A stretch of 64,000 nt of DNA, from NCBI GenBank assembly GCA_004138175.2, contig RYFE02000003.1, forward strand, positions 186,001 to 250,000, written 5' to 3'. The position numbers and the translations under genes were made by a program. Positions 14,445-64,000 of this stretch are shown piece after piece. The notes below the pieces were generated by a model, which made no database searches, had not been told where the DNA came from, and saw only the letters and a program-made list of their open reading frames with translations. This stretch comes from Chloroflexales bacterium ZM16-3. Lineage in GTDB: Bacteria; Chloroflexota; Chloroflexia; Chloroflexales; Chloroflexaceae. How positions within the stretch are numbered: the stretch's first letter is position 1; each line of letters opens with the position of its first letter.

Positions 14445-15254
14445 CTACTTGCTGCGCGGGAAGGTGTGCTCGGCCACCGGCACGAAGCGGCCTGCGTCCT
14501 CCATGTAGAGCAGCTGGCTGATGCGGATGGCGTTGTCCTCGACCTCAATCAGGTTGCAGGAGTTCTTGCCCTGCTCGCGGCCGTAGCCTCGGCGCGAGGT
14601 GGTGGTGCCGCTCTGGCAGATGATCGTGCCCTGGCGCAGGCCGTGGGCCACGTCGAGCGTGTTGCCCACATAGGAGACGTGGACGTGGCCGCAGAGCAGC
14701 AGCTCGGCACCGCACTCGTCGAGCAGGGCCATCGCCGCGTCGGCGGCGTCCATCGTGCGGTTCCGGTGGATGCCGAGCGGCGTGAGCACTGGGTGGTGCC
14801 AGACGACCACCTTGCAGGTGTCGGGGCCGTAGCGAGCGAGCGTCTTCCGCAGCGTGTCGGCCTGCCTCTTGCTGAGCCGCCCGCCGTCGAGGGTGAGGCC
14901 GTGGGCGGTGCATGCGCCGACGACCACCAGGCCGGGCAGCTCAAAGATCGGGTTGAGGTCGCGGCTGATATAGCGGCGGTAGCGGCCGAGCGGGTTGAGC
15001 AGGCGCAGGTGGGCGTTAAAGAGCGGCACATCGTGGTTGCCGGGCACCACCAGCTGCGGGGAGGGCAGGGCGGCGCGTAGCTCCTGGGCGGCCCGCCACT
15101 GGTCGGCGAAGTCGGCGCGCTGCACAAAGTCGCCCGAGATCACCAGCAGGTCGGGCCTGATCTCGTGGGCCTGGGCGATCAGCTTCTGGGCGATCTCGGG
15201 GCGGTGGGGCGGGCCGACGTGGACGTCGGAGATATGCAGGATGCGGTGGCGCAC
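14445..15254 (-). CDS. Calcineurin-like metallophosphoesterase
   Basis: With a GTG start at 15254 the protein has 269 residues. AGGAG lies ten bases upstream, inside the end of the small gene before it. The five metallophosphoesterase motifs are present in order: DVHVG (Asp10, His12), SGDFV, GNHD, WHHP and GHVH, so a two-metal active site is intact. It resembles Icc/CpdA-type phosphodiesterases. A role as SbcD is unlikely because the SbcD capping domain is absent. The gene is transcribed with the small membrane protein upstream. Substrate unknown; cyclic nucleotides are one possibility. Confidence 0.85.
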   Translation of the reverse strand: MRHRILHISDVHVGPPHRPEIAQKLIAQAHEIRPDLLVISGDFVQRADFADQWRAAQELRAALPSPQLVVPGNHDVPLFNAHLRLLNPLGRYRRYISRDLNPIFELPGLVVVGACTAHGLTLDGGRLSKRQADTLRKTLARYGPDTCKVVVWHHPVLTPLGIHRNRTMDAADAAMALLDECGAELLLCGHVHVSYVGNTLDVAHGLRQGTIICQSGTTTSRRGYGREQGKNSCNLIEVEDNAIRISQLLYMEDAGRFVPVAEHTFPRSK

Positions 15255-15261
15255 GGGGGGC

Positions 15262-15399
15262 TTACTCCTGGGCTGGCGCGGGCTCGGCGGGGCGGGCCTT
15301 CTCCAGGGCCAGGCGGAACAGCGACCGTCCAACCAGGGCGGCCTCGACGACTAGGACAGCGGCGAACCCGTACCGCAACACGGCGAGAACAATATCCAT
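15262..15399 (-). CDS. Small single-span membrane protein, 45 residues
   Basis: A short frame, ATG 15399 to TAA 15264-15262, encodes 45 residues: an N-terminal hydrophobic helix (about 2-24, IVLAVLRYGFAAVLVVEAAL), a basic amphipathic stretch and a Pro/Ala/Glu tail. GCGGAG lies nine bases before the ATG. Its end carries the AGGAG ribosome site for the phosphoesterase gene, whose GTG starts seven bases after the stop. The tight spacing and ribosome site argue that it is a real gene translated with the phosphoesterase. No family is recognised; it could anchor or modulate its neighbour. Confidence 0.55.
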   Translation of the reverse strand: MDIVLAVLRYGFAAVLVVEAALVGRSLFRLALEKARPAEPAPAQE

Positions 15400-15462
15400 G
15401 GCTGGCGCTCCGCTTCTTGCTTGCTAATAGGCGATTTTCGCCTCAATTGTAGCATACGCAGT

Positions 15463-15861
15463 TCACCTGTTATCTTGCTCCCAGCGCTCAATCGCGTTTC
15501 TCATCAGCGTGCTGCGGCTTGCGCCTGGTGCCTTTCGGGCCTCGAACTGGATGAGTCGCTCGGCTGTTTCCCTATTCCCGCGCACCTTTCTCAGCAGCGC
15601 CTTATGGAGCTGCTCCTCCGGGTCAGCCGCCCCGGCGGGGCTGGCTGGCGGCGCGGTGGGCCTGCGGGGTGTCGGGGCGTGATCTGGCCTCGGCGCGGCC
15701 TGGGGCTGGGCCGGCCTCGCTTTCTGCTCCGTCGGAATGGCGGGCCTGGGCGCTGCTTTCGGGCGCGGTCGTGCGGATCGCCTAGCGAGTGCATAAGCCC
15801 CGGCCGCGATCACGACGACCAGGATGATCACGCCCAAGGTTCCAATCAGCGCACTGTCCAT
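15463..15861 (-). CDS. Membrane-anchored protein with Pro/Ala-rich linker
   Basis: The 132-residue product has an N-terminal membrane segment (LIGTLGVIILVVVIAAGAYAL, about 5-25), a linker of about 50 residues rich in Arg, Pro, Ala and Gln, and a C-terminal helical domain (DPEEQLHKALLRKVRGNRETAERLIQFEARK). GGAGG lies six bases before the ATG, so the start is secure. It directly follows the large TPR-Hsp70-protease gene, 27 bases away on the same strand, and is likely in its operon. I do not recognise the family. Confidence 0.7.
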   Translation of the reverse strand: MDSALIGTLGVIILVVVIAAGAYALARRSARPRPKAAPRPAIPTEQKARPAQPQAAPRPDHAPTPRRPTAPPASPAGAADPEEQLHKALLRKVRGNRETAERLIQFEARKAPGASRSTLMRNAIERWEQDNR

Positions 15862-15888
15862 GCCAACCTCCGGATCATCTACTATACG

Positions 15889-18800
15889 CTATGGTCGCAC
15901 ATACTTCTCAAGCAGGTGCGCGGGCAGCGCCACCGGCTGATTCTCAACCATCGCCACCCCCTGCTCGTGCTGGATCTGCTCATACTGGACGAGGGTGACG
16001 ATGCCAATGACCTCGCCCAGATCATTGATCAGCGGGCCGCCGCTCATGCCCTGCCGGGCTTTCGTGTCGATGAAGATCACCCGCTCGGGCGAGCTGTCGA
16101 TCTTCCTGATCGCGTTGATGATACCCTGCGACACATAGATGTTCTCGCTATGATCGCTGGATCGTGGGGCGGCAAACCCGACGGCTAAAACCTGCTCGCC
16201 TGGCTCTACAAAGCGATGTTCGCCCAATATCAGTGGCGTCAGATCGTCGCTCACCTGAAGGATGGCGATGTCGTTGATCGGGTCGAGCTCCAGATGCGTG
16301 ACCTGATAGGTTGCGCGCTTGCCGATGACGTTGATGCTCTGCTGGCGCATGCGCTCAACCACGTGGCGGTTGGTAGCGATATGGTGCGGGTCGATGCAGA
16401 AGCCACTCCCCGAGATCAGCGCATTGTGCTCATCAATGCCCTGGATCATAAAGATAGAATCGCTGACAACCTTCATGATGTAGTCATTCAGCTGGTTGAA
16501 GCTCGGGTAGATCCTTTCGAATAGCGCGCCGAACCGTCTGTGCGTGTCTCGATACGCTTCTCTCATGCCGAGCGAGACATAGCAGCGCAGAAGCGTCTGA
16601 AACCCCTCGCTCGTCAGGCCCTCTGGGCTCGACGCAAGCGACTCAAGAATCGCCTGGGCCTGCGCCGCTCTCCCGGCCGCCAGATGGTAGCGGGCGAGCT
16701 CAAGCGGCCCCATCTGCTCTGTGGCTGGCTCTAGCGACTCTAGGATCTGACGCCAGCGCCGCAGCGGTGCCGCAACCTGCTCCTCCACGGATGCGATGGT
16801 GCGTCTGAGTACCTGCGTGTAGTGTGACAGCGTAGCGATCCGCTGCTTGATCTGCGAGGCAATAGCGCTGTCGCTGTAGTCCAGATGCCGCGTCTCAGCC
16901 TGCCTGATATTGTTGCAGGCCGAGACAAACTGGTCGTTGTACTGCGGGATGCCGTGGAAAAACTGATCTTTCTGGAGAAACATGTCCTGGATATCGGCGA
17001 CCTGCTCGGGGCTCGTCCGGTAGTGCTGCGGGTTGACCTCGATCTGCTCGTGGAACAGCTTGATGAAATCCTCGCTCGCCCGCTCGGCGGCCCTGATCGC
17101 CTGCTCACAGGTTAGCGTCAGCGCGCTGATCTCGCCTCGCGTCTGCTCAAGCTCCTTTTCGAGCGCGTACACCTGCTCGCGCTGGGTGAAGTACGTGCTT
17201 AGGCGCTGCTTCTCCTGAGGCGACAGCCCAACCGCCCGCTCGATCCGTACAGAGCGCTGGTTGCCGGTGGCCTTGTCGGTCGCGGTGACCATCAGGATGC
17301 AGTCGATGCCAATGTCGAACACAACCTCGATCTGTGGCGTCTGCCCAGGCGCGGGCGGGATGCCATCAAGAATAAAATCGCCCAGGAAGTAGTTCTTCTG
17401 CGGCTCTGTAGATTCGCCCTGGTACACTTTGATGTGTACATTCTGCTGATTGTCATCTTTTGTGGTGAATGTTTCTGCCTTCGTGATCGGGATGTGCGTA
17501 TTCTTCTCGATCAGCTTGACGAAGCGCTCTTCTTTGCTTGCGGCATTGATAGCTGAGATACCGAGGCTGTAGGGGACGAGATCCAGCAGGGCGATCTGCT
17601 TGATCGCGCCATGCAGGATCGCGCCCTGCAACGCCGCCCCCATCGCCACGACCGTCCCCGCATCGAAGCCCTTGAGCTGTCGGGCGGCGATCAGCTGCGC
17701 TGCCAGCCTGCCGACCGCCGGCATCTTGGTCGCATTGCCCACCAGGATGAAGCTATCTAGCTTTGCGCCATAGCCTTTGATCGTCTTGGTGATCGCATGG
17801 CCAAGCCGATCAAGGATTGGCTTGGCCAGATCCTCTAGCTCCGCCCTGGTCATGCTACATGTATACCTGGGCCGGTTGAGAAAGTGGACGAGCTCCATCG
17901 TGCTGCGTTCCGTTGAGGACAGATTGATCTTTAGCAGCTCACAGGCATCTCGCAGGCGCATGATCTCGCTTGGGTGGGTCTTCTGGCTCAGTGTGATGCC
18001 CCAGAGGCTGCTGATGTTATCGATCACATGCTGGAGCATGATCGTATCGATGTCGCTGCCGCCCAGCTTCGGGTCGCCGCCAACCGCCCGCACATCATCG
18101 ACCCCCTCGCTGATCTCGACGATAGAGATATCTAAGGTTCCGCCGCCAAGATCGATCACCGCCAATGTGCCTGCGTACGACTTCTGGTAGCTATATGCCA
18201 GCGCAGCTGCCGTCGGCTCGTGCAGGAGGCGGCGCACGCGCAGCCCGGCGATCTCAGCGGCATCGCGGGTGGCCCGCTTCTGGTTGTCATTGAAGTAGGC
18301 GGGGACGGAGAGCACGATCTCGTTGAGCTGGATGCCGCTCGTCTGCCGGGCGAGGAAGCCCCGCAGCATCTCAGCGGGGAACCGCAGATCGCGGCGGCTC
18401 AAGAGCGCGAGGAACTCGGCTTCGACCTTGGCACGCAGGTACGCCTCGGCGTTTGCGCGCAGCTGGCGCAGGAAGCTGGCGACAATCTCCTCGCAGCTGT
18501 AGCGTCGCCCATAGATCGGGAAGGACTTCTGCTTGCCGAGGCTCCGCTTCACCCGAGAGACGACGCTTTCGGGGGCGGTGAGCGACCGCAGCCGGGCCGC
18601 CTCGCCGAAGATCGGGCGGCTCTGATCATCGAGCCCGAAGAAGGACGGCTCAAACTCATCGCCCCGCGCCGTCAGGATGATCTCTGCGCGCTTGCTCTGC
18701 GTATTGAAGATGGCGGCGACAGAGTTGGTGGTGCCAAAATCAATCCCGATCAGCGGGACGTACCTGCCAATGACATCGTCTCGCGCGATGGTGAAGCACT

Positions 18801-20361
18801 GGTCAAGATCCTGCACGTTGCTCATGCCGAGCGCCGCCATCTTCTCTTTGATCACCCTGATCTGGCTGTGTAGCTTATGCGCTGTGGCGACCGACAGCGC
18901 CCGCTCTAGGTCGGCGAAGCCTCCCGGCCGCATCAGGATCTCGACCACCTGCTCAAATGCTCCGGCGCTGGCGTACAGCTGCATGAGCACCTCTGGGTCG
19001 GGGTTCGAGACGTTCAGGTAGCATTTGATCGCCTTGTCGTATTGCCGTATGCGCTCGTATAAGGCGAATGCCTTCTCGTACTGGGCTGCCGACTCGTAGA
19101 GCTGGGCGGCGCTGGCCAGGTTGCCCCCTCTCTCGTGCAGCTCAGCCAGCCTGATCTGGGCGACATGCGGCTCGGCCTGCCCTGCGCCGTGCATGGCGGC
19201 CGTCTCAATCGCCCGATTGAACAGATTCGCCTTCTCATACAGCCGGCTCGCCAGTTCCAGATCGCCCAGGATATCTGCGGCGATCATCCCAGCCTCGGCG
19301 AAGTGCCCGGCCCGCTCCTCAAGCGCCACGCTGTCGCGGTAGATCGCCTGGATCTCGGCGGGCGACGTGGCAGTGGCGAGGCGACCCGTGGCGTACTGGC
19401 GGGCCAGCGCCAGCATCTCCTCCCTAGCGTCGGGCGGGTACTCGGCGATATCGGCCAGATCAAATGCGCCGATGAAGTCCTGCGCCCGTATGCGCGCTTC
19501 CACCTGTTGCCTTGCCTGGTCTCTGATCTGGTCGAAATACATGTGCGGCGACTCCATGCCGACGGCACATGTGCGCGCCTCAGCGAGCCGCCCTAGCCGG
19601 ATGAGCAGCGTGATCCTGCGGGCCGGGCTCAGCGCGCGCTCCAGGGCCGTCTCCAGATCTCCCATGGCCTCGGCGGCGCGCGAGGCCCCCTCGCGATCGC
19701 CGATAGCCTCGTAGATCTTGTACGCCGCCAGATGATCGTCGGCCTGCTCATAGCAGTGCGCCGCGTCGACGAGGCTCCCCTGCGCGGCATAGGCATCGGC
19801 GGCAGCCTGATACTGGCCGATAATTTCCCTGACCCGCGGGTTGTCGGGGATGCACTCCGGCGCAACTGCCGCGATGTTGACGAGCATGGCGGCCATTGTC
19901 GGGCTCCGCCGGATGTCGTTGTTATGGGTCTCCCATGCTCGGACAGCCAGATCCAGGGCGGCACCGTCTACATTGTCACCGTGTGCGACACGCATGATCA
20001 GCTCGTTCGCCTGGCCGCGCCGGGCGAGCAGATCGATGGCGCCGGCGGCGTATCCGGCGTAGTCGTAGAGTAGGATCGCGGCGGAGTCGTGCTGGGCCTC
20101 TTCCAGCAGACTGAGGGCCTGTCTGATCTGGTCGGCGGGGATCTGCGCCTCTAGCGGGGGCATCGCCGCGATCTGGGGGCCGTAGGTGAGGATGATGTCG
20201 GCGAGGTGCTGCGCGCTCTGTTGCTCTAGCCGGAGACTGAGCGCTCTACAGAAGAGGGCGAACGCTCGTGGCTGACCAGGTGTCGCGACGGCCCGCTGTA
20301 GCTCTCGCTCAAGCTTTGTCGCTGCCTTCTCGGTCGAGAAGAACCTTTTGAAGAAGCCCAT
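15889..20361 (-). CDS. TPR repeats - Hsp70 (DnaK-like) - trypsin-like protease fusion
   Basis: This 1,490-residue protein joins three parts. Residues 1-520 are helical repeats of TPR/clathrin-repeat type (for example AADAYAAQGSLVDAAHCYEQA, AAQLYESAAQYEKAFALYERI). From about 536 an Hsp70 follows: IDFGTTNSVAAIF (540 on), VPAYFNDNQKRATRDAAEIAGL, HEPTAAALAY, VIDLGGGTLDISIV, then a substrate-domain-like stretch and a helical region. Residues 1292-1490 are a trypsin fold with an intact triad: His1333 (TNRHVV), Asp1364 (NDIAIL) and Ser1440 (GMSGGP). No signal peptide or membrane segment is seen, so it is likely cytoplasmic. AGGAG precedes the ATG by seven bases. A canonical dnaK is separate (63500). 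A role in protein quality control or in a conflict/defence pathway is inference. Confidence 0.9.
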   Translation of the reverse strand: MGFFKRFFSTEKAATKLERELQRAVATPGQPRAFALFCRALSLRLEQQSAQHLADIILTYGPQIAAMPPLEAQIPADQIRQALSLLEEAQHDSAAILLYDYAGYAAGAIDLLARRGQANELIMRVAHGDNVDGAALDLAVRAWETHNNDIRRSPTMAAMLVNIAAVAPECIPDNPRVREIIGQYQAAADAYAAQGSLVDAAHCYEQADDHLAAYKIYEAIGDREGASRAAEAMGDLETALERALSPARRITLLIRLGRLAEARTCAVGMESPHMYFDQIRDQARQQVEARIRAQDFIGAFDLADIAEYPPDAREEMLALARQYATGRLATATSPAEIQAIYRDSVALEERAGHFAEAGMIAADILGDLELASRLYEKANLFNRAIETAAMHGAGQAEPHVAQIRLAELHERGGNLASAAQLYESAAQYEKAFALYERIRQYDKAIKCYLNVSNPDPEVLMQLYASAGAFEQVVEILMRPGGFADLERALSVATAHKLHSQIRVIKEKMAALGMSNVQDLDQCFTIARDDVIGRYVPLIGIDFGTTNSVAAIFNTQSKRAEIILTARGDEFEPSFFGLDDQSRPIFGEAARLRSLTAPESVVSRVKRSLGKQKSFPIYGRRYSCEEIVASFLRQLRANAEAYLRAKVEAEFLALLSRRDLRFPAEMLRGFLARQTSGIQLNEIVLSVPAYFNDNQKRATRDAAEIAGLRVRRLLHEPTAAALAYSYQKSYAGTLAVIDLGGGTLDISIVEISEGVDDVRAVGGDPKLGGSDIDTIMLQHVIDNISSLWGITLSQKTHPSEIMRLRDACELLKINLSSTERSTMELVHFLNRPRYTCSMTRAELEDLAKPILDRLGHAITKTIKGYGAKLDSFILVGNATKMPAVGRLAAQLIAARQLKGFDAGTVVAMGAALQGAILHGAIKQIALLDLVPYSLGISAINAASKEERFVKLIEKNTHIPITKAETFTTKDDNQQNVHIKVYQGESTEPQKNYFLGDFILDGIPPAPGQTPQIEVVFDIGIDCILMVTATDKATGNQRSVRIERAVGLSPQEKQRLSTYFTQREQVYALEKELEQTRGEISALTLTCEQAIRAAERASEDFIKLFHEQIEVNPQHYRTSPEQVADIQDMFLQKDQFFHGIPQYNDQFVSACNNIRQAETRHLDYSDSAIASQIKQRIATLSHYTQVLRRTIASVEEQVAAPLRRWRQILESLEPATEQMGPLELARYHLAAGRAAQAQAILESLASSPEGLTSEGFQTLLRCYVSLGMREAYRDTHRRFGALFERIYPSFNQLNDYIMKVVSDSIFMIQGIDEHNALISGSGFCIDPHHIATNRHVVERMRQQSINVIGKRATYQVTHLELDPINDIAILQVSDDLTPLILGEHRFVEPGEQVLAVGFAAPRSSDHSENIYVSQGIINAIRKIDSSPERVIFIDTKARQGMSGGPLINDLGEVIGIVTLVQYEQIQHEQGVAMVENQPVALPAHLLEKYVRP

Positions 20362-20600
20362 AGGCGAACTCCTGCATACGCTCGACCCTGCGTGGTCTTT
20401 GTTACCTCGATCTGGGCGGGGAAGCCCTCTTCAGCTCTCCAAACATGCGAATGGGTGGATTAATATTATGGTTGTATTCTGGGAAAATAAAGCGCAATTA
20501 TAGTTATATTGTAGCAACTGCTGAAACCTCTAGTCGCTCCGGTGCATCTCAAGATGCGGATAACACCTCTATTAGCGCAGCATAGTTGAAGGAGTGGACG
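20362..20600. promoter_or_regulatory. AT-rich divergent intergenic region
   Basis: The region between the divergent Hsp70-fusion and transporter genes contains an AT-rich core (20456-20515). On the minus strand TATAAT occurs at 20497-20502; on the plus strand TATATT and TTATAG lie close together. -35 boxes are poor, so the promoters are placed only roughly. Confidence 0.4.
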
Positions 20601-21602
20601 ATGTGGAAGGCGCTCGCATTCTTGCAGAAGCACCTGGTGTGGAGCATCCCGGCGGCGATGGTTCTGGGCCTGGTGTACGGCTCGTGGGCTAACCCCGCTC
20701 CCTTGCGCAGCTTAATCACCCCGCTGACCTTCCTGATGGTCTACCCGATGATGGTGACGCTCAACCTCAAGCAGGTCTTCACCGGCGGCGATACCCGGCT
20801 CCAGCTGGCCACTCAGCTACTCAACTTTGCTGTCATCCCCTTCGTTGGCTTTGCGATGGGCAAGCTTCTCTTCGCCGACCGGCCGCTGATCGCCGTGGGC
20901 CTGCTGCTCACCTCGCTGCTCCCGACCTCGGGCATGACCATCTCGTGGACTGGCTTTGCCAAGGGCAACGTGCTGTCGGCAGTCAAGATGACCGTGATCG
21001 GGCTGGTGATCGGCTCGGTGGCCACCCCGCTCTACCTGAAGATGCTGATGGGCACGGCGATCGACGTGCCCCTGTCCGACATCTTCAGCCAGATCATCCT
21101 GATCGTGTTCCTGCCGATGGCGGCGGGCTACGCCACCCAGCGCGGGCTGATCAAGATCTACGGGGTGGATCGCTACAATGTCCAGGTCAAGGGGCGCTTC
21201 CCCATGATCTCGACCCTGGGCGTGGTCGGGATCGTCTTCACGGCGATCGCCCTGAAGGCGACGACGATCATCAGCAGCCCCGCCCTGCTGCTGCGGCTGG
21301 TGCTGCCGCTGCTGCTGCTCTACGGGCTCAACTTCCTGCTGAGCACGCTGGTCGGCAAGCTGTTCTTCTCCCGTGGTGACGCCATCGCGCTCGTCTACGG
21401 CAGCGTGATGCGGAACCTCTCGATCGCCCTAGCGGTGGCGATGACCGCATTCGGCAAGGATGGCTCAGAGATCGCGCTGATCATCGCCCTGGCCTACATC
21501 ATCCAGGTTCAGGCGGCGGCCTGGTACGTCAAGTTCACCGACCGGATCTTCGGCAATGCCGCCGAGAAGGTGCCGACGGCTCAGCCAGCGAAGGTGGGGT
21601 AG
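20601..21602 (+). CDS. Bile acid:sodium symporter / ACR3-like transporter
   Basis: From ATG 20601, six bases behind GAAGGAG, the protein has 333 residues and about ten membrane segments. It fits the BART superfamily: MVYPMMVTLNLKQ, LLTSLLPTSGMTISWTGFAKGN, and VYGSVMRNLSIALAVA near the end. Arsenite exporters of the ACR3 type have a conserved Cys in the segment equivalent to LLPTSGM; here no Cys is present, so arsenite transport is doubtful and an organic anion or other substrate is more likely. The frame could also begin at TTG 20586, which would overlap the ribosome site. No regulator such as ArsR is adjacent. Confidence 0.8.
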   Translation: MWKALAFLQKHLVWSIPAAMVLGLVYGSWANPAPLRSLITPLTFLMVYPMMVTLNLKQVFTGGDTRLQLATQLLNFAVIPFVGFAMGKLLFADRPLIAVGLLLTSLLPTSGMTISWTGFAKGNVLSAVKMTVIGLVIGSVATPLYLKMLMGTAIDVPLSDIFSQIILIVFLPMAAGYATQRGLIKIYGVDRYNVQVKGRFPMISTLGVVGIVFTAIALKATTIISSPALLLRLVLPLLLLYGLNFLLSTLVGKLFFSRGDAIALVYGSVMRNLSIALAVAMTAFGKDGSEIALIIALAYIIQVQAAAWYVKFTDRIFGNAAEKVPTAQPAKVG

Positions 21603-24940: not shown

Positions 24941-25196
24941 GGCGGTCAGTAACCGCAGGGGTTAAAACCCTGCGGCTTGTGGAGTAATCAACAAGCCTGT
25001 GCTGACCAGACTCAGCCCTTCACGGGGCTACGCACAACGGGTCACGACACCTTCCGGTGCGTTGCCAGCCGGTCGCGCTGTCGTCGGTGATCACACCCAC
25101 CTGGGGTAAGGGTGGGAGGTCGCAGGCACGACAAGCCCGCTGTGCATTGTCGAGGCGAACCTTACCCGCGCAAGCGGAGCTGGAGTAATCCAAACC
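24941..25196 (+). ncRNA. Omega RNA (guide scaffold) of IscB
   Basis: The 250 bases directly before iscB hold no gene but are rich in nested pairs. GGTCAG (24944-24949) pairs with CTGACC (25002-25007) and encloses two hairpins: CCGCAGGG with CCCTGCGG (24953-24960, 24968-24975) and CTTGT with ACAAG (24976-24980, 24991-24995). Further pairs are AGCCC with GGGCT (25014-25018, 25025-25029) and CCCACC with GGTGGG (25096-25101, 25111-25116). Known omega RNAs lie at this position, carry the guide at the 5' end and continue up to the nuclease gene. The guide should therefore lie just before about 24941. Exact ends cannot be set by eye. Confidence 0.75.
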
Positions 25197-26477
25197 ATGT
25201 CGCTTGTCTTTGTCCTCAGCAGCGACGGCCAGCCGCTCGACCCGTGCCACCCAGCGCGGGCGCGGCGGCTGCTCGATCACGGCAAGGCAGCCGTGTGGCG
25301 GCGCTACCCGTTCACGATCCGGCTCAACGCGCGAACCGCAGCCGCGAGCGTTACCCACCCGCACCGGCTCAAGCTCGACCCTGGAAGCAAGACCACGGGC
25401 ATCGCGGTGGTGGCCGAGGCGAGCGGGCGCGTCGTCTGGGCGGGCGAGCTGACCCATCGGGGGCAGGCTATCCGCGACGCCCTGCTCAGTCGGCGGGTCA
25501 GCCGGCGCAGCCGGCGGCAGCGCAAGACCCGCTACCGCCAGCCCCGCTTCCGCAACCGGCGCAGGCCCGAGGGCTGGCTGGCTCCGAGCCTCCAACACCG
25601 GGTCGATACGACCCGCACCTGGGTCAACAGGCTGCGGCGGTTCGTGCCGGTCACGGCCATCAGCGCCGAACTGGTGCGCTTCGACACGCAGTTGCTAGAG
25701 AACGCCGAGATCAGCGGCGTGGCGTACCAGCAGGGCACGCTGGCGGGCTACGAGGTGCGCGAATATATCTTGGAAAAGTGGGGCCGCCGCTGCGCCTACT
25801 GCGGCGCGAAGGATACCCCGCTGCAAATCGAGCACATCGTCCCGCGTGCACGGGGCGGCTCAGACCGCATCAGTAACCTTACCCTCGCCTGTGCGCAGTG
25901 CAATCAGCAGAAAGGCATGCAAACCGCTGAGGAGTTCGGCCATTCCGACATCCAGGCGCAGGCCCGCCGCCCGCTCAAGGACGCGGCGGCGGTCAACACG
26001 ACTCGCTGGGCACTCTATCAGCAGCTCATCGCCACCGGCATGCCCGTCGAGGTCGGCACGGGAGGCATGACGAAGTTCAACCGCATGCGGCTGGGGCTGG
26101 AGAAGTCCCACTGGCATGATGCGGCCTGTGTCGGGGCCAGTACGCCCGATGCGCTGGACGTGCGCGGCGTGCGCCCACTGCTGCTGCGGGCGATGGGGCA
26201 CGGCACACGTCAGATGTGCCGGATGAACGCCTTTGGATTCCCGCGCACCGGCCCGAAGGGTGCGCGCGTTGTGAAGGGCTTCAAGACCGGCGACATGGTG
26301 CGCGCCATCGTCACGACCGGCACGAAGCAAGGCGTCTATGTCGGACGGGTCGCCGTGCGAACAGTTGGCAGCTTCAACATCACGACCACTACCGGCACGA
26401 CCCAAGGACTCCACCATCGGTTCTTTCGCGCCATCCAACGAGCAGATGGTTATAACTACGCGTACGAGGTTGCCTGA
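25197..26477 (+). CDS. iscB: IscB RNA-guided nuclease (RRXRR-RuvC-HNH)
   Basis: The 426-residue protein is a complete IscB, the family ancestral to Cas9. The N-terminal PLMP/RRXRR region (residues 1-45) holds RARRLLDHGKAAVWRR. RuvC-I is LKLDPGSKTTGIAVV with Asp61; the arginine-rich bridge helix follows (RRVSRRSRRQRKTRYRQ, 99-115); RuvC-II is SAELVRFD with Glu158; the HNH insert has zinc pairs Cys199/202 and Cys232/235 with catalytic EHI at 212-214 and Asn227; RuvC-III is WHDAACVG with His307 and Asp308. A C-terminal domain of about 110 residues recognises the target-adjacent motif in relatives. All catalytic residues are present, so it may be active. It lies directly behind its RNA. Confidence 0.95.
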   Translation: MSLVFVLSSDGQPLDPCHPARARRLLDHGKAAVWRRYPFTIRLNARTAAASVTHPHRLKLDPGSKTTGIAVVAEASGRVVWAGELTHRGQAIRDALLSRRVSRRSRRQRKTRYRQPRFRNRRRPEGWLAPSLQHRVDTTRTWVNRLRRFVPVTAISAELVRFDTQLLENAEISGVAYQQGTLAGYEVREYILEKWGRRCAYCGAKDTPLQIEHIVPRARGGSDRISNLTLACAQCNQQKGMQTAEEFGHSDIQAQARRPLKDAAAVNTTRWALYQQLIATGMPVEVGTGGMTKFNRMRLGLEKSHWHDAACVGASTPDALDVRGVRPLLLRAMGHGTRQMCRMNAFGFPRTGPKGARVVKGFKTGDMVRAIVTTGTKQGVYVGRVAVRTVGSFNITTTTGTTQGLHHRFFRAIQRADGYNYAYEVA

Positions 26478-51068: not shown

Positions 51069-54000
51069 CTACGCCGCAACGATCATCTGCTCGATCTGCG
51101 CGATCAGATCGGCAAGGCGCGGAGGATCGGCGGCGTCGATGAAGGCGGGGATGGTGGGCAGCGAGGCATGGGTGGGGGGGACGACACCAGTGAGCCGGAT
51201 GGCCCTGGCCCGGTTGTGCGCAGTGGGCAGGGCTGCCGCCAGCGCCGCGTAGGTTGCCCCGGCGGCAAGGCGATCCACCTCCCGACCAGGGTCAATCTGC
51301 CAGATCGCATAGTGGATGGCCGCCCGCTCGCTCTGGCTGAACCAGTCCTCGTCCAGCTCGATAAGCGGTATGATCGCCGACTCGGTCGGCTCCTCGCCAA
51401 GCAGCACGCGCAGCCGGACGCCCAGCAGGGTGGCATGGAGCTGCATCGCCTTGTTGCTGCCGAGCCTGCGCGCCGTCTGAAGAGCCGCGTCGTTCAGGGC
51501 GGCGGCCTCGGCGTAGCGCCCCTGAGCTGCCAGCAGCTGGGCGTAGTCGTGGCGGAACTCGCAGGCCCAGTAGGGCAGATTGATCGCGTCGCAGAGCGAG
51601 ATCGCCAGATCGCTCACCCGCTCGGCCATACGATGCTTGCCCAGGCGGGCGTAGGCATAAGCTAGGTAGCCCAGGCCGATCGCCAGGTCGCGCCGCTCGC
51701 CCAGATCCAGGGCGATGGCGAGCTGCCGGGCGTAGCAGCTCATTCCGGCGCTGACCTCGCCATAGAGCGTGTGGGCCCGGCCGATCTCGTGGGTGATCCG
51801 GGCCACCGCCCAGCGGTCGCCGATCTCCACCGCGCGCAGCAGCAGCTCGTGAAAGATCTCCAGGGCGTCGAGCAGCTGGCTCTGGTTCAGGTAGATCGAC
51901 CCGATGCTCTCGCGTGACCGCGCCAGCAGGCCCCAGTCGCCCAGGCGCGCGGCCATCTCGGCGCTGCGCTCCAGGCAGTAGAGCGCCATCTCGTAGTCGC
52001 TGATGTCCATATAGACCACGCCCATCGCGCTGATCGAGCGGGCGATCAGGGTCTGGTCGTCTAGACGCACGGCGATCTCGTGGGCGTGCTCGATCGAGCG
52101 CAGGCCACGGGTGTAGAAGCCTGTGTCGATCATAATCGAGCCAAAGATGCGCAGCGCCTCGTAGTGGCCCGCCAGGTCGCCCAGTCGCTCCCACGTCGGG
52201 ATGGACACATCGAGGATCGCCAGGGCCGCCTCATAGTCGCCGCGAGCGGCCAGCAGCTCGGCGGTGGCGTTCTGACAGTGAGCGGCGGCGGCAACATCGC
52301 CGGCGGCCTCGGCGATGGCCTGCGCCTGCCCAAAGGCATCCTCGGCCTCGGCCCAGCGCCCCACCAGCTGGAGCACCTCGCCAATCCGCTGGAGCACCGG
52401 CACCTGGCCCGGCGGTTCGAGCAGCGGCAGCAGGCGGCGGTAGTAGACGAGCGCAGTATCGTTGGCGTAGGAAGCCTGAGCCGCCTGGCCCGCTAGGCTG
52501 AAGTAGTGACGCTGCCGCCCTTGGTTCTCGCTGCGCCCATAGTGGTAGGCCAGCATGTCCAGGTAGCGCTCAAACTGATCAGCGAAGCGGCTCTCGATAT
52601 AGTCGCCCACCTGCTCGTGCAGCATCGCGCGGGTGGCGTAGGCTAGGCTCTCGTAGGCCACCTCCTGGGTCATCATATGCTTAAACAGATACTCCAGCTC
52701 GGGCTCGGCCTTCTCCATCGGCGTCAGGTCGAGGTGGCTGAGCCGGTCGAGGTTGGCCCGCACCTGCTCGGGCCGCCCGATCTGCGGGTAGATCCCCCAC
52801 AGCCAGCTGGCCCGGAAGACCCGGCCGATCACGCTGGCCACCTTGAGGGTGATCTGCTCATGCTCGCTGAGTCGGTCGATGCGGCTGATGATCAGCGAGC
52901 GCAGGCTGTCGGGCAGGCGCACCATCTCCAGGGCGTGGGAGTCCGCCGGGCTGATCCCCTGGTCCTGAATGTAGTTGATCATCTGGTCGATATAGAAGGG
53001 GTTGCCCTGCGAGCGCGTGGTGATCCGCTCGACGAAGCTGGTTGGAAGGACGCCGCGCGCGCCGAAGAGGTAGCCGAACTTCAGCCCGATCAGCCACTCG
53101 GTCTCGCGCAGGCTAAACTCGCGCAGCAGCAGCTCGCGGAAGTGGGGCATGCGCGCCACGCGCAGGCGGGCGTGCTCGTGCTCGGGCGGTCGATAGGCCA
53201 GCAGGATCATCACCGGCAGGCCCACGATACCGCGAGCCACCACCTCAAGCAGGTCGTGCGAGAGCGGGTCGATCCAGTGACAGTCCTCGATCACCAGCAG
53301 CAGCCCGCCGCCCGGCCCCCGGCTGATCGCGATAGCCCGCAGGCACTCCAGCACCGTCGTCTCCAGGACATCCTTGCGCACCCGCGCGTCGAGCGCACGG
53401 GTCTGGTCGGTCTCATCAACGGGCAGGTTCATCGCCCCGGCAAGCACCGGCAGACGGCGCAGCACCTGCGGGCACATGGCGGCCACCCGCTCATGGAGGT
53501 GGCGCAGCTGGGTGTCCTTGGGCCATGTCAGGTCGATGGTGAAGATCCCGAGCAGCAGGCTGCTCCAGGGCAGGTAGCTGGTGCTGCCGCCGTGCGAGAG
53601 GCACTCGCCAGAGTGGACGACCATGTTGCGGCGGGCGGCCATGCGGATCGCCTCGGCCACCAGGCGCGACTTGCCCATCCCGGCCTCGGCGCAGATGCCC
53701 ACCACCTGGCCGCGCCCGCCCCTGGCCAGCTCAAGGCGCTCCTCCAGGGACAGCATCTCATCCTCGCGGCCCACCATTGGCAGCTTGTACGAGGGCTCCT
53801 GGTGGCGGCTGGCCCGCTGCTGCTCCTGCTCCAGCCGGTAGACAGGCACCGCCCGCGAGCGCCCCTTCACCGGCAAGGTCTCCAGCGGCGTCCAGAGAAA
53901 CTGGTCGGCCACGGGCCGATGGGCGCCGCTGGCGGCGATCACCTCGCCCGGCACGGCGGCCTGCATCAGCCGGGCCGCCAGATTCACCGTGTCGCCCATC

Positions 54001-55181
54001 ACCGTGTACTCGCGGCGCATCTCCGCACCCACGAGCCCGCAGTAGACCAGGCCCGAGGCGATGCCGATGCGGATGCTAAATGTTGAGTGTTGAGTGTTGA
54101 ATGTTGAATTGGAGGATACTTCCTGAGATCCGACATCCGGCATGCTCAATTCATCATTCGCTATTCGCAGCTCGCGCAGCGCCAGAGCGCAGCGCATCGC
54201 CCGCTCAGGATCGTTCTCGTGGGAGATCGGCGCGCCGAAGATCACCACCAGCTTGCTGCCCTTATCGCCCATGTCGATCTTATTCAGGTCGCCATCGTAG
54301 CGCTCGACGATCAGCGCCACCTGAGCGATATATGCCTGGAGCCGCGCCCCAACCTGCGGGTCGCTGTCGTAGTCGAAGCCGCTAAACCCGACAAAGAGCA
54401 CCGTCACATTGCGGTGCTCATTCACAAAGCCAGCCTGTCCATCGAGCAGGCGCCGGGCGAGCGAGGGGTGAAGGAATGCGCTGAGCGTAGGTAGCAGCGA
54501 CTCATCGGCGGCGGGCAGGGGAGGCAGCGGCGTATAGGATGGCAGCCCGACCAGATCAGCGACCAGCCCGTAGTCGCCGCGATCCTCGGAGACGACGATC
54601 TCGGGCGCGAGGTTGCACAGATCGCGGTGGACAACCACATCGCCGCTGTGGGCAAGGTGCTCGGCCTGCGCCGCCTGCTCCAGAGGCAGGCCAGCGATCA
54701 TGCTCTGTAGGCGCACCGCCCGGTCGCCCACCACCGTGGACAGCACCGGCCCGACGGCCAGGCCGATCTTGATCTCTAGGCTGAAGCGGCCGGCCCGCGT
54801 CTCGATATTCTGATAGGGCGACATGAGCAGCTGCATGTCGAGGGCGCAGCGCACAGCCCGCGCCGCCACATCTCTAGCCGCAGCCCCTCCCCCGGTCGGG
54901 AAGAGCGCGGAGAGCGAGTCGCCGCCGAAGGAGGCCACCACCCCACCGTAGGAAGCGATCAGGTCGATCATCACCGCGAAGTAGTCGTTGAGCAGGGTCG
55001 TCAGATCTTCAGTGCCATCTTGCCCATAGCGGCTCAGGGCCTCGCTCATCGGCGTGAAGCCCGAGACATCGGCGAACAGAGTCACCACATGATCGCGGTG
55101 GGTGCGCCCGACTATGTCATCGGCTCCACCGATGAGATCGGAGGCTATCTGATAGGGCAGGTGTGCGAGGAGTTGTCTCAT
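51069..55181 (-). CDS. Tandem class III cyclase - AAA ATPase - TPR protein
   Basis: This 1,370-residue protein has two nucleotide-cyclase domains, an ATPase and TPR repeats. Domain 1 keeps both metal-binding Asp: Asp38 (LFADVSGF) and Asp88 (GGDSLSALF). Domain 2 (from about 260, VTVLFVGFSGFD) has Gly where the first metal Asp should be, so the pair may form one working and one degenerate site, as in the soluble adenylyl cyclase ADCY10, which shares the whole layout. A P-loop CAEAGMGKS follows near 497, then helical repeats to the end. A heptamer repeat (54081-54108) is translated inside domain 2 as NSTFNTQHSTFS. It may make cAMP or act as a signal-responsive scaffold. No ribosome site is obvious. 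Confidence 0.88.
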   Translation of the reverse strand: MRQLLAHLPYQIASDLIGGADDIVGRTHRDHVVTLFADVSGFTPMSEALSRYGQDGTEDLTTLLNDYFAVMIDLIASYGGVVASFGGDSLSALFPTGGGAAARDVAARAVRCALDMQLLMSPYQNIETRAGRFSLEIKIGLAVGPVLSTVVGDRAVRLQSMIAGLPLEQAAQAEHLAHSGDVVVHRDLCNLAPEIVVSEDRGDYGLVADLVGLPSYTPLPPLPAADESLLPTLSAFLHPSLARRLLDGQAGFVNEHRNVTVLFVGFSGFDYDSDPQVGARLQAYIAQVALIVERYDGDLNKIDMGDKGSKLVVIFGAPISHENDPERAMRCALALRELRIANDELSMPDVGSQEVSSNSTFNTQHSTFSIRIGIASGLVYCGLVGAEMRREYTVMGDTVNLAARLMQAAVPGEVIAASGAHRPVADQFLWTPLETLPVKGRSRAVPVYRLEQEQQRASRHQEPSYKLPMVGREDEMLSLEERLELARGGRGQVVGICAEAGMGKSRLVAEAIRMAARRNMVVHSGECLSHGGSTSYLPWSSLLLGIFTIDLTWPKDTQLRHLHERVAAMCPQVLRRLPVLAGAMNLPVDETDQTRALDARVRKDVLETTVLECLRAIAISRGPGGGLLLVIEDCHWIDPLSHDLLEVVARGIVGLPVMILLAYRPPEHEHARLRVARMPHFRELLLREFSLRETEWLIGLKFGYLFGARGVLPTSFVERITTRSQGNPFYIDQMINYIQDQGISPADSHALEMVRLPDSLRSLIISRIDRLSEHEQITLKVASVIGRVFRASWLWGIYPQIGRPEQVRANLDRLSHLDLTPMEKAEPELEYLFKHMMTQEVAYESLAYATRAMLHEQVGDYIESRFADQFERYLDMLAYHYGRSENQGRQRHYFSLAGQAAQASYANDTALVYYRRLLPLLEPPGQVPVLQRIGEVLQLVGRWAEAEDAFGQAQAIAEAAGDVAAAAHCQNATAELLAARGDYEAALAILDVSIPTWERLGDLAGHYEALRIFGSIMIDTGFYTRGLRSIEHAHEIAVRLDDQTLIARSISAMGVVYMDISDYEMALYCLERSAEMAARLGDWGLLARSRESIGSIYLNQSQLLDALEIFHELLLRAVEIGDRWAVARITHEIGRAHTLYGEVSAGMSCYARQLAIALDLGERRDLAIGLGYLAYAYARLGKHRMAERVSDLAISLCDAINLPYWACEFRHDYAQLLAAQGRYAEAAALNDAALQTARRLGSNKAMQLHATLLGVRLRVLLGEEPTESAIIPLIELDEDWFSQSERAAIHYAIWQIDPGREVDRLAAGATYAALAAALPTAHNRARAIRLTGVVPPTHASLPTIPAFIDAADPPRLADLIAQIEQMIVAA
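54081..54108. repeat. In-frame heptamer repeat inside the cyclase gene
   Basis: Four copies of TGTTGAG/TGTTGAA are read through by the cyclase gene, producing an insertion of roughly 20 residues just before the strand RIGIASGLVYCG of the second cyclase domain. Confidence 0.9.
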
Positions 55182-63499: not shown

Positions 63500-64000
63500 A
63501 TGGGTAAAATTGTAGGAATCGACCTGGGGACGACCAACTCGTGCGTGGCGGTGATGGAGGCCGGCGATGCCGTTGTCATCCCTAACGCTGAGGGCAATCG
63601 GACGACCCCGTCGGTCATCGCCTTCGCCAAGAATGGCGAGCGCCTTGTCGGGCAGACCGCCAAGCGCCAGGCGACGATCAACCCTGAGAATACGCTCTAC
63701 TCGGTCAAGCGCTTCATCGGCCGCGACTTCGACGACACCCCCAGCGAGCGCGAGATCGTATCCTTTAAGGTTGCCAAGGGTGCTCGCGGCGACGTGCGGA
63801 TCGGCGTCCCGCAGACGGGTAAGGACTACGCGCCTCAGGAGATCTCGGCCATGGTGCTCCAGAAGCTCAAGGCCGACGCTGAGGCGTATCTGGGCGAGCC
63901 GGTAACGCAGGCGGTGATCACTGTCCCGGCCTACTTCAACGACGCCCAGCGTCAGGCCACCAAGGACGCTGGTAAGATCGCTGGCCTTGAGGTGATGCGG
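63500..64000 (+). CDS. dnaK: Chaperone protein DnaK, N-terminal part (partial)
   Basis: The gene starts at ATG 63500 behind GGAGG and runs out of the window after 167 codons. The sequence is canonical Dna[59 protein letters not shown], and [22 protein letters not shown]. It has ATPase-driven chaperone activity with DnaJ and GrpE. This authentic DnaK shows that the Hsp70 fused to a protease at 15889-20361 is an additional, specialised protein. Confidence 0.97.

Follow-up and report, generated by a model that had tools for sequence, protein, structure and literature searches.

Why would a bacterium place an Hsp70 between a helical repeat region and a protease, and what might such a protein do? 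The question is raised by a gene in a 64,000-nt stretch of DNA from Chloroflexales bacterium ZM16-3 (GenBank assembly GCA_004138175.2, contig RYFE02000003.1, positions 186,001 to 250,000 of the forward strand), which we call the window and number from its first letter. The gene starts with ATG, has no internal stops along its 1490 codons, and encodes in one polypeptide a helical solenoid, the nucleotide-binding domain (NBD) and the β part of the substrate-binding domain (SBDβ) of an Hsp70, a linker made of helices, and a protease with the trypsin fold, in that order (Table 1). We tentatively read this fusion as a conflict protein that is rare, spreads horizontally, and acts most likely against phage, with the Hsp70 gating the protease, an account to which we give a little less than an even chance.

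Hsp70s have been studied as general chaperones. The Hsp70 part of the fusion matched Pfam HSP70 at 385 bits (cutoff 20.6, E = 5e-115), and phmmer aligned it to DnaK (2kho) across both the NBD and the SBD, junction included. Five positions that we take from Hsc70/DnaK to be the catalytic ATPase residues (D541, K605, E715, D737, and T742) were invariant in all 53 Hsp70 domains compared, including four fusions, in line with the initial annotation of an Hsp70 with intact nucleotide motifs. As that annotation also held, dnaK is encoded separately; full-profile Hsp70s lie at positions 249509–251296 of the same contig (C51; starting at window position 63509) and on contig C90. DnaK provides the closest solved structures and shares the ATPase positions, but the fusion falls far below the cutoff of the DnaK equivalog (NCBIfam TIGR02350, prok_dnaK; 406.4 vs. 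822.55 bits), carries an insert of about 33 residues in its NBD, and continues from the SBD into a long linker and a protease. The spacing between Y641 and P687 is 46–47 residues in all four fusions, compared with 14 residues in 48 and 16 in one of 49 other Hsp70s, most of them DnaKs from the phylum of the window genome, together with two from Omnitrophota and six borne on plasmids. Position 714 is His in every fusion and Asn in each of the 49. Because the NBD insert and the Asn-to-His change are common to the four fusions and occur in none of the others, the four form one distinct family, as judged from their sequences.

The other three members lie far from the window genome. A scan of genome_contigs with six exact peptide patterns, which would miss members as distant as the one from Embleya described below, yielded 15 pattern matches; two loci were confirmed, and both lie in Omnitrophota metagenome-assembled genomes (L009 in G424 and L010 in G425). 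Along residues 1–1488 of the window protein, these homologues reach 49% and 48% identity in the best segment; by part, identity is 41%–42% in the N terminus, 56%–58% in the NBD, 61%–62% in SBDβ, 39%–41% in the linker, and 56% in the protease. A plasmid search returned 445 records, and among the best 10 listed only a megaplasmid of Embleya sp. NBC_00896 had a match extending outside the Hsp70 region and its borders (query residues 284–1395, 27.5% identity). The Embleya open reading frame (ORF), whose TTG start codon is uncertain, has HSP70 and then Trypsin_2 behind ∼580 N-terminal residues with no Pfam family at E 0.01. The order of parts is identical in all four fusions.

A careful tree of 22 domains recovered the fusions of the window and Omnitrophota as a clade (support 100/99). 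A placement of the Omnitrophota fusions beside the DnaKs that their own genomes encode was rejected (approximately unbiased test, p-AU 9e-57), so the gene has moved horizontally. The position of Embleya in the tree is unsettled (support 81/97), with a grouping among actinobacterial DnaKs not rejected (p-AU 0.134); a quick tree placed it with the fusions at support 100, with long-branch warnings. Profile comparison of Embleya against the other three (hhalign) matched the N terminus (E 1.8e-9; a profile that generic TPR proteins also match) and the protease (E 6.6e-13) and found no match in the linker (E 0.08). We count Embleya in the family because it shares three features with the rest: the insert in the NBD, His at position 714, and the order of the parts.

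Between the two Omnitrophota copies, the proportion of synonymous differences (pS) was 0.68–0.80, near saturation and thus at a depth where an exact dN/dS is not meaningful, and the nonsynonymous proportion (pN) was 0.06–0.14 in every part; SBDβ had 0.06, and the protease, at 0.08, was the second lowest of the five parts. These values indicate that all parts of the fusion are under constraint between the two copies. They also bear on the possibility that the fusion is an assembly artifact or a functionless chance join. It was seen only once in the class searched, but the same fusion occurs in three further genomes, including those of another phylum, searches of close relatives found no full-length copy, the frame is open for 1490 codons, and every part is constrained; we give this explanation practically no credence, and a join by assembly error, raised in the initial annotation, is excluded by the homologues.

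Full-length copies are rare. The window's own was the only one among 61 near genomes, 158 genomes of the class, and 400 drawn from the phylum, and the fusion was found in two out of 384 Omnitrophota genomes; these counts come from few scored candidates per genome (up to nine in the near genomes, three in the class, three in Omnitrophota, and three and two in the phylum), and a divergent copy may have escaped notice where strong DnaK matches were present. In one congener (G004, contig C106), the sequences corresponding to window positions 14454–15423 and 20497–21594 align at 95% and 93% (blastn) and lie only 87 bp apart, so the window genome has 5073 bp extra. The block ends are uncertain, as the 87 bp at this empty site show no clear match to them, and the site was uninformative in the other four of five congeners, in whose loci the SBF flank did not align. 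No terminal repeats clearly frame the block among the pairs listed (20 of 21 direct and 25 of 26 inverted); there are only short, diverged internal repeats. The block contains only two ORFs of at least 80 aa, those of the fusion and of a 132-aa protein, if frames overlapping these are set aside, and a promoter/terminator scan remained near the shuffled expectation (1 vs. 1.5; 4 vs. 2.8). The GC content of the fusion (0.62) and its GC at third codon positions (GC3; 0.80) are the lowest in a comparison with seven other window genes, and in GC3 the 132-aa ORF (0.75) alone falls below it among the genes measured. A phage or virus origin was considered and rejected: in viral_contigs, a search with the protein confirmed nothing and one with a three-row alignment gave 22 pattern matches, none of them relatives; the N-terminal part had no match in phages; and the 52 phage records returned by a homologue query included none covering 80% of it, the 10 listed falling in the Hsp70 part.

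Two other candidates were not counted as fusions. A third Omnitrophota match (490-aa ORF in G441) is a plain TPR protein without an Hsp70, and in G016, a genome of the window's family, a long ORF runs into the start of an Hsp70 and is followed by a separate Hsp70 ORF. The latter locus (L064, 1214–7030) presents another Hsp70 in a conflict-type setting: a 906-aa ORF with a SIR2-like/STAND-type look runs into the NBD, a stop lies inside the Hsp70 frame, and a 372-aa ORF with the Hsp70 remainder and a SIR2-CHAT-like-looking ORF follow (apart from Hsp70, domain names were assigned by visual inspection and not by profile searches). Ingredients similar to those of the fusion occur as separate genes on a 40-kb plasmid of Nostoc sp. 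UHCC 0302 (L090, 1–5271), where an operon-like row is annotated as a TPR protein, a DnaJ-domain protein, GrpE, an Hsp70 family protein, and a TPR protein.

Table 1. Features of the fusion gene and the inserted block, in window coordinates
Feature	Position	Strand	Basis
Fusion gene (TPR-like solenoid, Hsp70, trypsin), 1490 aa	15889..20361	-	ORF, Pfam, full-length homologues
N-terminal helical repeat solenoid, residues 1-534	18760..20361	-	AlphaFold2, Foldseek/VIA
Hsp70 NBD plus SBDβ, residues 535-1045	17227..18759	-	Pfam HSP70, phmmer to DnaK 2kho
Family-specific NBD insert, ~33 residues, about residues 644-676	18334..18432	-	Hsp70 comparison
Helical linker, residues 1046-1296	16474..17226	-	Structure model
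Trypsin-fold serine protease, residues 1297-1490	15892..16473	-	Pfam Trypsin_2, alignment to MucD/HtrA2/DegP-like chains
Triad codon H1333	16363-16365	-
Triad codon D1364	16270-16272	-
Triad codon S1440	16042-16044	-
132-aa protein ORF	15463..15861	-	Start codon 27 bp downstream of fusion stop
Inserted block, 5073 bp	15424..20496	no strand	blastn of window vs. congener G004

Does the protease part look active? Pfam Trypsin_2 was matched over its whole profile (1–144) at residues 1318–1454, with 90 bits against a cutoff of 27.6 (E 2.6e-25), and phmmer aligned His1333, Asp1364, and Ser1440 to the HtrA-type motifs of the solved MucD (8k2y); the trypsin fold with a complete triad of the initial annotation is therefore upheld as a prediction. 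HtrA/DegP proteins offer the closest solved structures, but the fusion differs from them in being joined to an Hsp70, in having no PDZ family listed by Pfam at E up to 1, and in lacking a secretion or membrane segment by hydropathy; it also stays below the cutoff of degP_htrA_DO (NCBIfam; 71.8 vs. 416.2 bits). The highest 19-residue hydropathy, 1.48, lies in the Hsp70 part, and because no membrane-like segment is seen by this measure (hydropathy only, with no signal-peptide predictor), the protease is most likely cytosolic. The trypsin part might instead be a peptide-binding or regulatory pseudoprotease, with the whole protein acting as a scaffold or decoy, and the Asn that replaces the triad Asp in Embleya would fit such a role. 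The triad is nevertheless kept in the window copy and both Omnitrophota homologues, and both identity and pN place the protease with the better conserved parts, which makes this alternative decidedly improbable.

The N-terminal region had been described as some 500 residues of TPR-like repeats. An AlphaFold2 model of residues 1–560, with three homologues given, is an all-helical solenoid (mean predicted local distance difference test [pLDDT] 80.4; predicted TM-score [pTM] 0.45) with 33 helices of at least four residues up to residue 538, which fits a repeat region; the TPR label fares less well, as neither a Pfam TPR model nor any other family exceeded its cutoff in the N-terminal third of the window protein. 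In one Omnitrophota homologue (P0003), TPR_7 is barely above its cutoff (28.7 vs. 27.9 bits for the whole protein), with no single repeat significant. Foldseek matches to the model were mostly of the TPR class (LGN and Ctr9) and IFT-A at the top, with clathrin lower (E from 5.8e-7 at best to 5e-5), at low TM-scores (≤0.28) and large root-mean-square deviation (rmsd). A VIA comparison, covering the families on its list, gave Z ≤ 10 and rmsd of 5 to 37, a range common for helical repeats. We therefore claim for the modeled region only a fold class, that of a helical repeat solenoid with mostly TPR-class matches. Structure prediction was less successful for the rest of the protein: the model of residues 530–1490 was poor (mean pLDDT 54.6, too low for reading the triad geometry), although within it the linker block, at pLDDT 42–84 and mostly 60–84 in the middle, has predicted long helices at about 1048–1109, 1118–1157, and 1164–1208 and shorter ones to about 1302.

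The initial annotation pointed to repeat-sensor–protease fusions known from bacterial conflict and signaling systems, and the gene neighborhoods agree in part with a role in conflict. A defense-gene setting is found at two of the four loci, both in Omnitrophota. At L009, a PDC-S18 candidate-defense gene with no Pfam family lies directly upstream of the fusion, which also comes after a type III restriction–modification pair (Mod/Res); at L010, the genes ahead of the fusion are those of PglZ, BrxL, a metallophosphatase, an SMC-like ATPase, and a HARE-HTH protein that has a weak PDDEXK_5 match and ends 14 bp upstream, and the sequence ends 126 bp after the fusion gene. G424 as a whole has a single REase_III match, ending 1.1 kb from its fusion, and G425 a single BrxL match, ending 4.9 kb from its own; these two families were picked after the loci had been seen, so the distances give a scale and not a test. 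Neither family was matched in a whole-genome search of the window genome. The islands, together with the mobility and sporadic occurrence of the fusion, speak for the conflict idea.

Several observations weigh against it. The upstream neighbors of the two Omnitrophota copies are unlike each other, and only four members are known, from pattern-based searches or from the best-scored candidates per genome. Ten proteins near the window copy gave partial, generic PADLOC matches and no specific defense neighbor: the SbcC-like ATPase to LmuB (112 bits, residues 52–456, partial profile), two ABC ATPases to mad3 (84 and 102 bits), a metallophosphatase to PDC-S10 (31 bits), and the HNH part of an IscB-like ORF to PtuB (38.5 bits). 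Each of the five congeners likewise had a match to DNA of the SbcC-like gene, and in none of them was the fusion seen. Ten Embleya neighbors gave just weak PADLOC matches, on a response regulator. The trypsin domain by itself does not point to defense, since it scores about equally with PADLOC RT-Protease_XI (71.3 bits) and HtrA (71.8 bits), and the Embleya copy has its Asn at the triad Asp.

These points give room to the main rival, a quality-control machine in which the Hsp70 hands unfolded clients to the attached protease, making the protein a single-chain degradative chaperone without a role in defense. The alignment of SBDβ and the NBD–SBD junction with DnaK, the HtrA-type quality-control proteases nearest in structure to the protease, and the want of specific defense neighbors in the window and Embleya would all suit such a machine. 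Its sporadic occurrence and horizontal spread would not, nor would the position of both Omnitrophota copies in defense islands or the ordinary DnaK that each of the three genomes checked carries in addition, and we consider quality control unlikely, if the most serious of the alternatives.

The 132-aa protein bears on another rival. It has an N-terminal membrane helix (hydropathy 2.71, residues 4–22), a Pro-rich linker, and a short C-terminal module; no Pfam family is listed for it at E up to 1, and its gene is absent from the empty site of G004, having been inserted together with the fusion. Of 60 relatives, one (G057) has a match to residues 81–131, in a different small membrane protein (E 6e-10); in G041 and at a second place in the window genome, only the membrane/Pro-rich part was matched, and weakly. 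A C-terminal module of ∼50 residues ending in RWE.DN is common to this protein and to a small membrane protein at L067 (1135–1659) that is otherwise different. In Embleya, the gene directly upstream of the fusion (L041, 8293–8898) encodes a 201-aa protein with an N-terminal membrane helix and a Pro/Thr-rich stretch and no PADLOC match. The fusion could accordingly be a host stress or developmental signaling protease that cleaves a co-encoded membrane-anchored protein upon protein misfolding and not upon phage infection. Such proteins do stand beside the fusion in both genomes, but they are alike in layout only, the Omnitrophota flanking ORFs examined (upstream and downstream at L009, upstream at L010) have no comparable membrane helix, and the fusion has spread horizontally; we regard this alternative as improbable.

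Returning to the antiphage reading, a mechanism can be sketched. By analogy with the systems of Tuck et al. (2025; PMC12799240, in the passages available), we infer that the Hsp70 and its ATP state control the protease and that the repeats act as a sensor. The solenoid, with the SBD, would recognize an infection-related protein or complex; the ATP cycle, aided by a host J-protein and GrpE, would change the conformation or oligomer of the fusion protein, releasing or concentrating the protease; and the released protease would cleave one or a few partners, leading to growth arrest or cell death that limits the phage. Candidate partners are the neighboring nuclease-like proteins in Omnitrophota and the co-inserted membrane-anchored 132-aa protein in the window, and because they differ between loci, the choice of any single one is weakened. 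That the four proteins are a mobile antiviral family whose Hsp70 cycle is the switch, with solenoid and SBD reading an infection signal and the ATP state turning the protease on, is a possibility that we hold with clear reserve. If true, it would mean that an immune switch can be built on the Hsp70 cycle, by a family that moves from phylum to phylum, comes to rest in defense islands, and holds its Hsp70 fixed amid repeat scaffold and protease; such a protein would also offer a single chain in which Hsp70 control over an enzyme could be measured directly.

The wider surroundings add some further observations. Nearby ORF families in the window are metallophosphatase, SBF, SbcC-like, ABC transporter, and HlyD, with a divergent SBF transporter as the upstream neighbor of the fusion. 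The window and L010 both have an SMC-type ATPase not far from the fusion, from which we draw nothing; we note it because Lamassu (LmuA) is among the systems with a fused trypsin-like protease (PMC12799240). An IscB/OMEGA-like locus occupies window positions 24945–26477, with a HEARO (omega) RNA (24945–25165, forward strand, 125 bits) directly before an RRXRR+HNH ORF (25197–26477, forward strand), and a 1370-aa ORF at 51069–55181 on the reverse strand has guanylate cyclase, an AAA_16 ATPase, and TPR repeats. The neighbors in Embleya include a two-component pair, GH20, an alcohol dehydrogenase, and, 2.3 kb downstream of the fusion, an ORF of the metallo-β-lactamase (MBL) fold (Lactamase_B_2).

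How does the fusion compare with known systems? No described TPR–Hsp70–trypsin protein was found in the literature searched, which excluded most subscription papers and all of bioRxiv, and no passage on such a fusion was found in the accessible parts of two papers on bacterial Hsp70 paralogues (PMC11019930, PMC8265645). Similar ingredients appear in the work of Kaur et al. (2020; PMC7159879), whose GTPase-centered and MoxR-vWA systems likewise use chaperone-type NTPase switches, TPR repeats, and trypsin-like peptidases. In its passages on HSP70 and most of those on trypsin, however, the HSP70, GrpE, and DnaJ/TPR parts are separate genes beside GTPases, the trypsins sit on other cores, and no TPR–Hsp70–trypsin polypeptide appears; the neighbor GTPase, GrpE, and DnaJ/FNIII genes of the GAP1-N2/HSP70 systems were not found among the window ORFs scanned nearby. 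The passages available from the 2021 follow-up (PMC8195603) mention HSP70 only in a gene expansion of C. virginica. TPR-CHAT/Craspase (PMC9729208, in part) also joins TPR repeats and a protease in one chain and has the protease gated by a sensing partner, but the protease is a caspase-like CHAT, the partner is CRISPR RNA-guided, and there is no Hsp70. We rate the fusion as a modular repeat–NTPase–protease conflict protein whose putative use of Hsp70 as a switch is undescribed in the literature searched.

A parallel in action exists with the nuclease–protease pairs of Hachiman, AVAST, Lamassu, and DRT, in which, according to the passages available, trypsin-like proteases fused to sensing components (LmuA in Lamassu among them) unlock pro-nucleases by cutting, with ATP hydrolysis and oligomerization (Tuck et al. 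2025). The fusion resembles them in joining a trypsin-like protease to what would be a sensing/ATPase defense component and, at the two Omnitrophota loci, in having a nuclease-like gene directly upstream. It differs in that the upstream partner in those pairs is an MBL-fold pro-nuclease, with no MBL-fold upstream neighbor at the fusion loci, and in that their protease is N-terminal, whereas that of the fusion is C-terminal with an Hsp70 as the ATPase. In this family, a chaperone may conceivably take the place of the STAND, AAA+, or helicase modules of known defense proteins.

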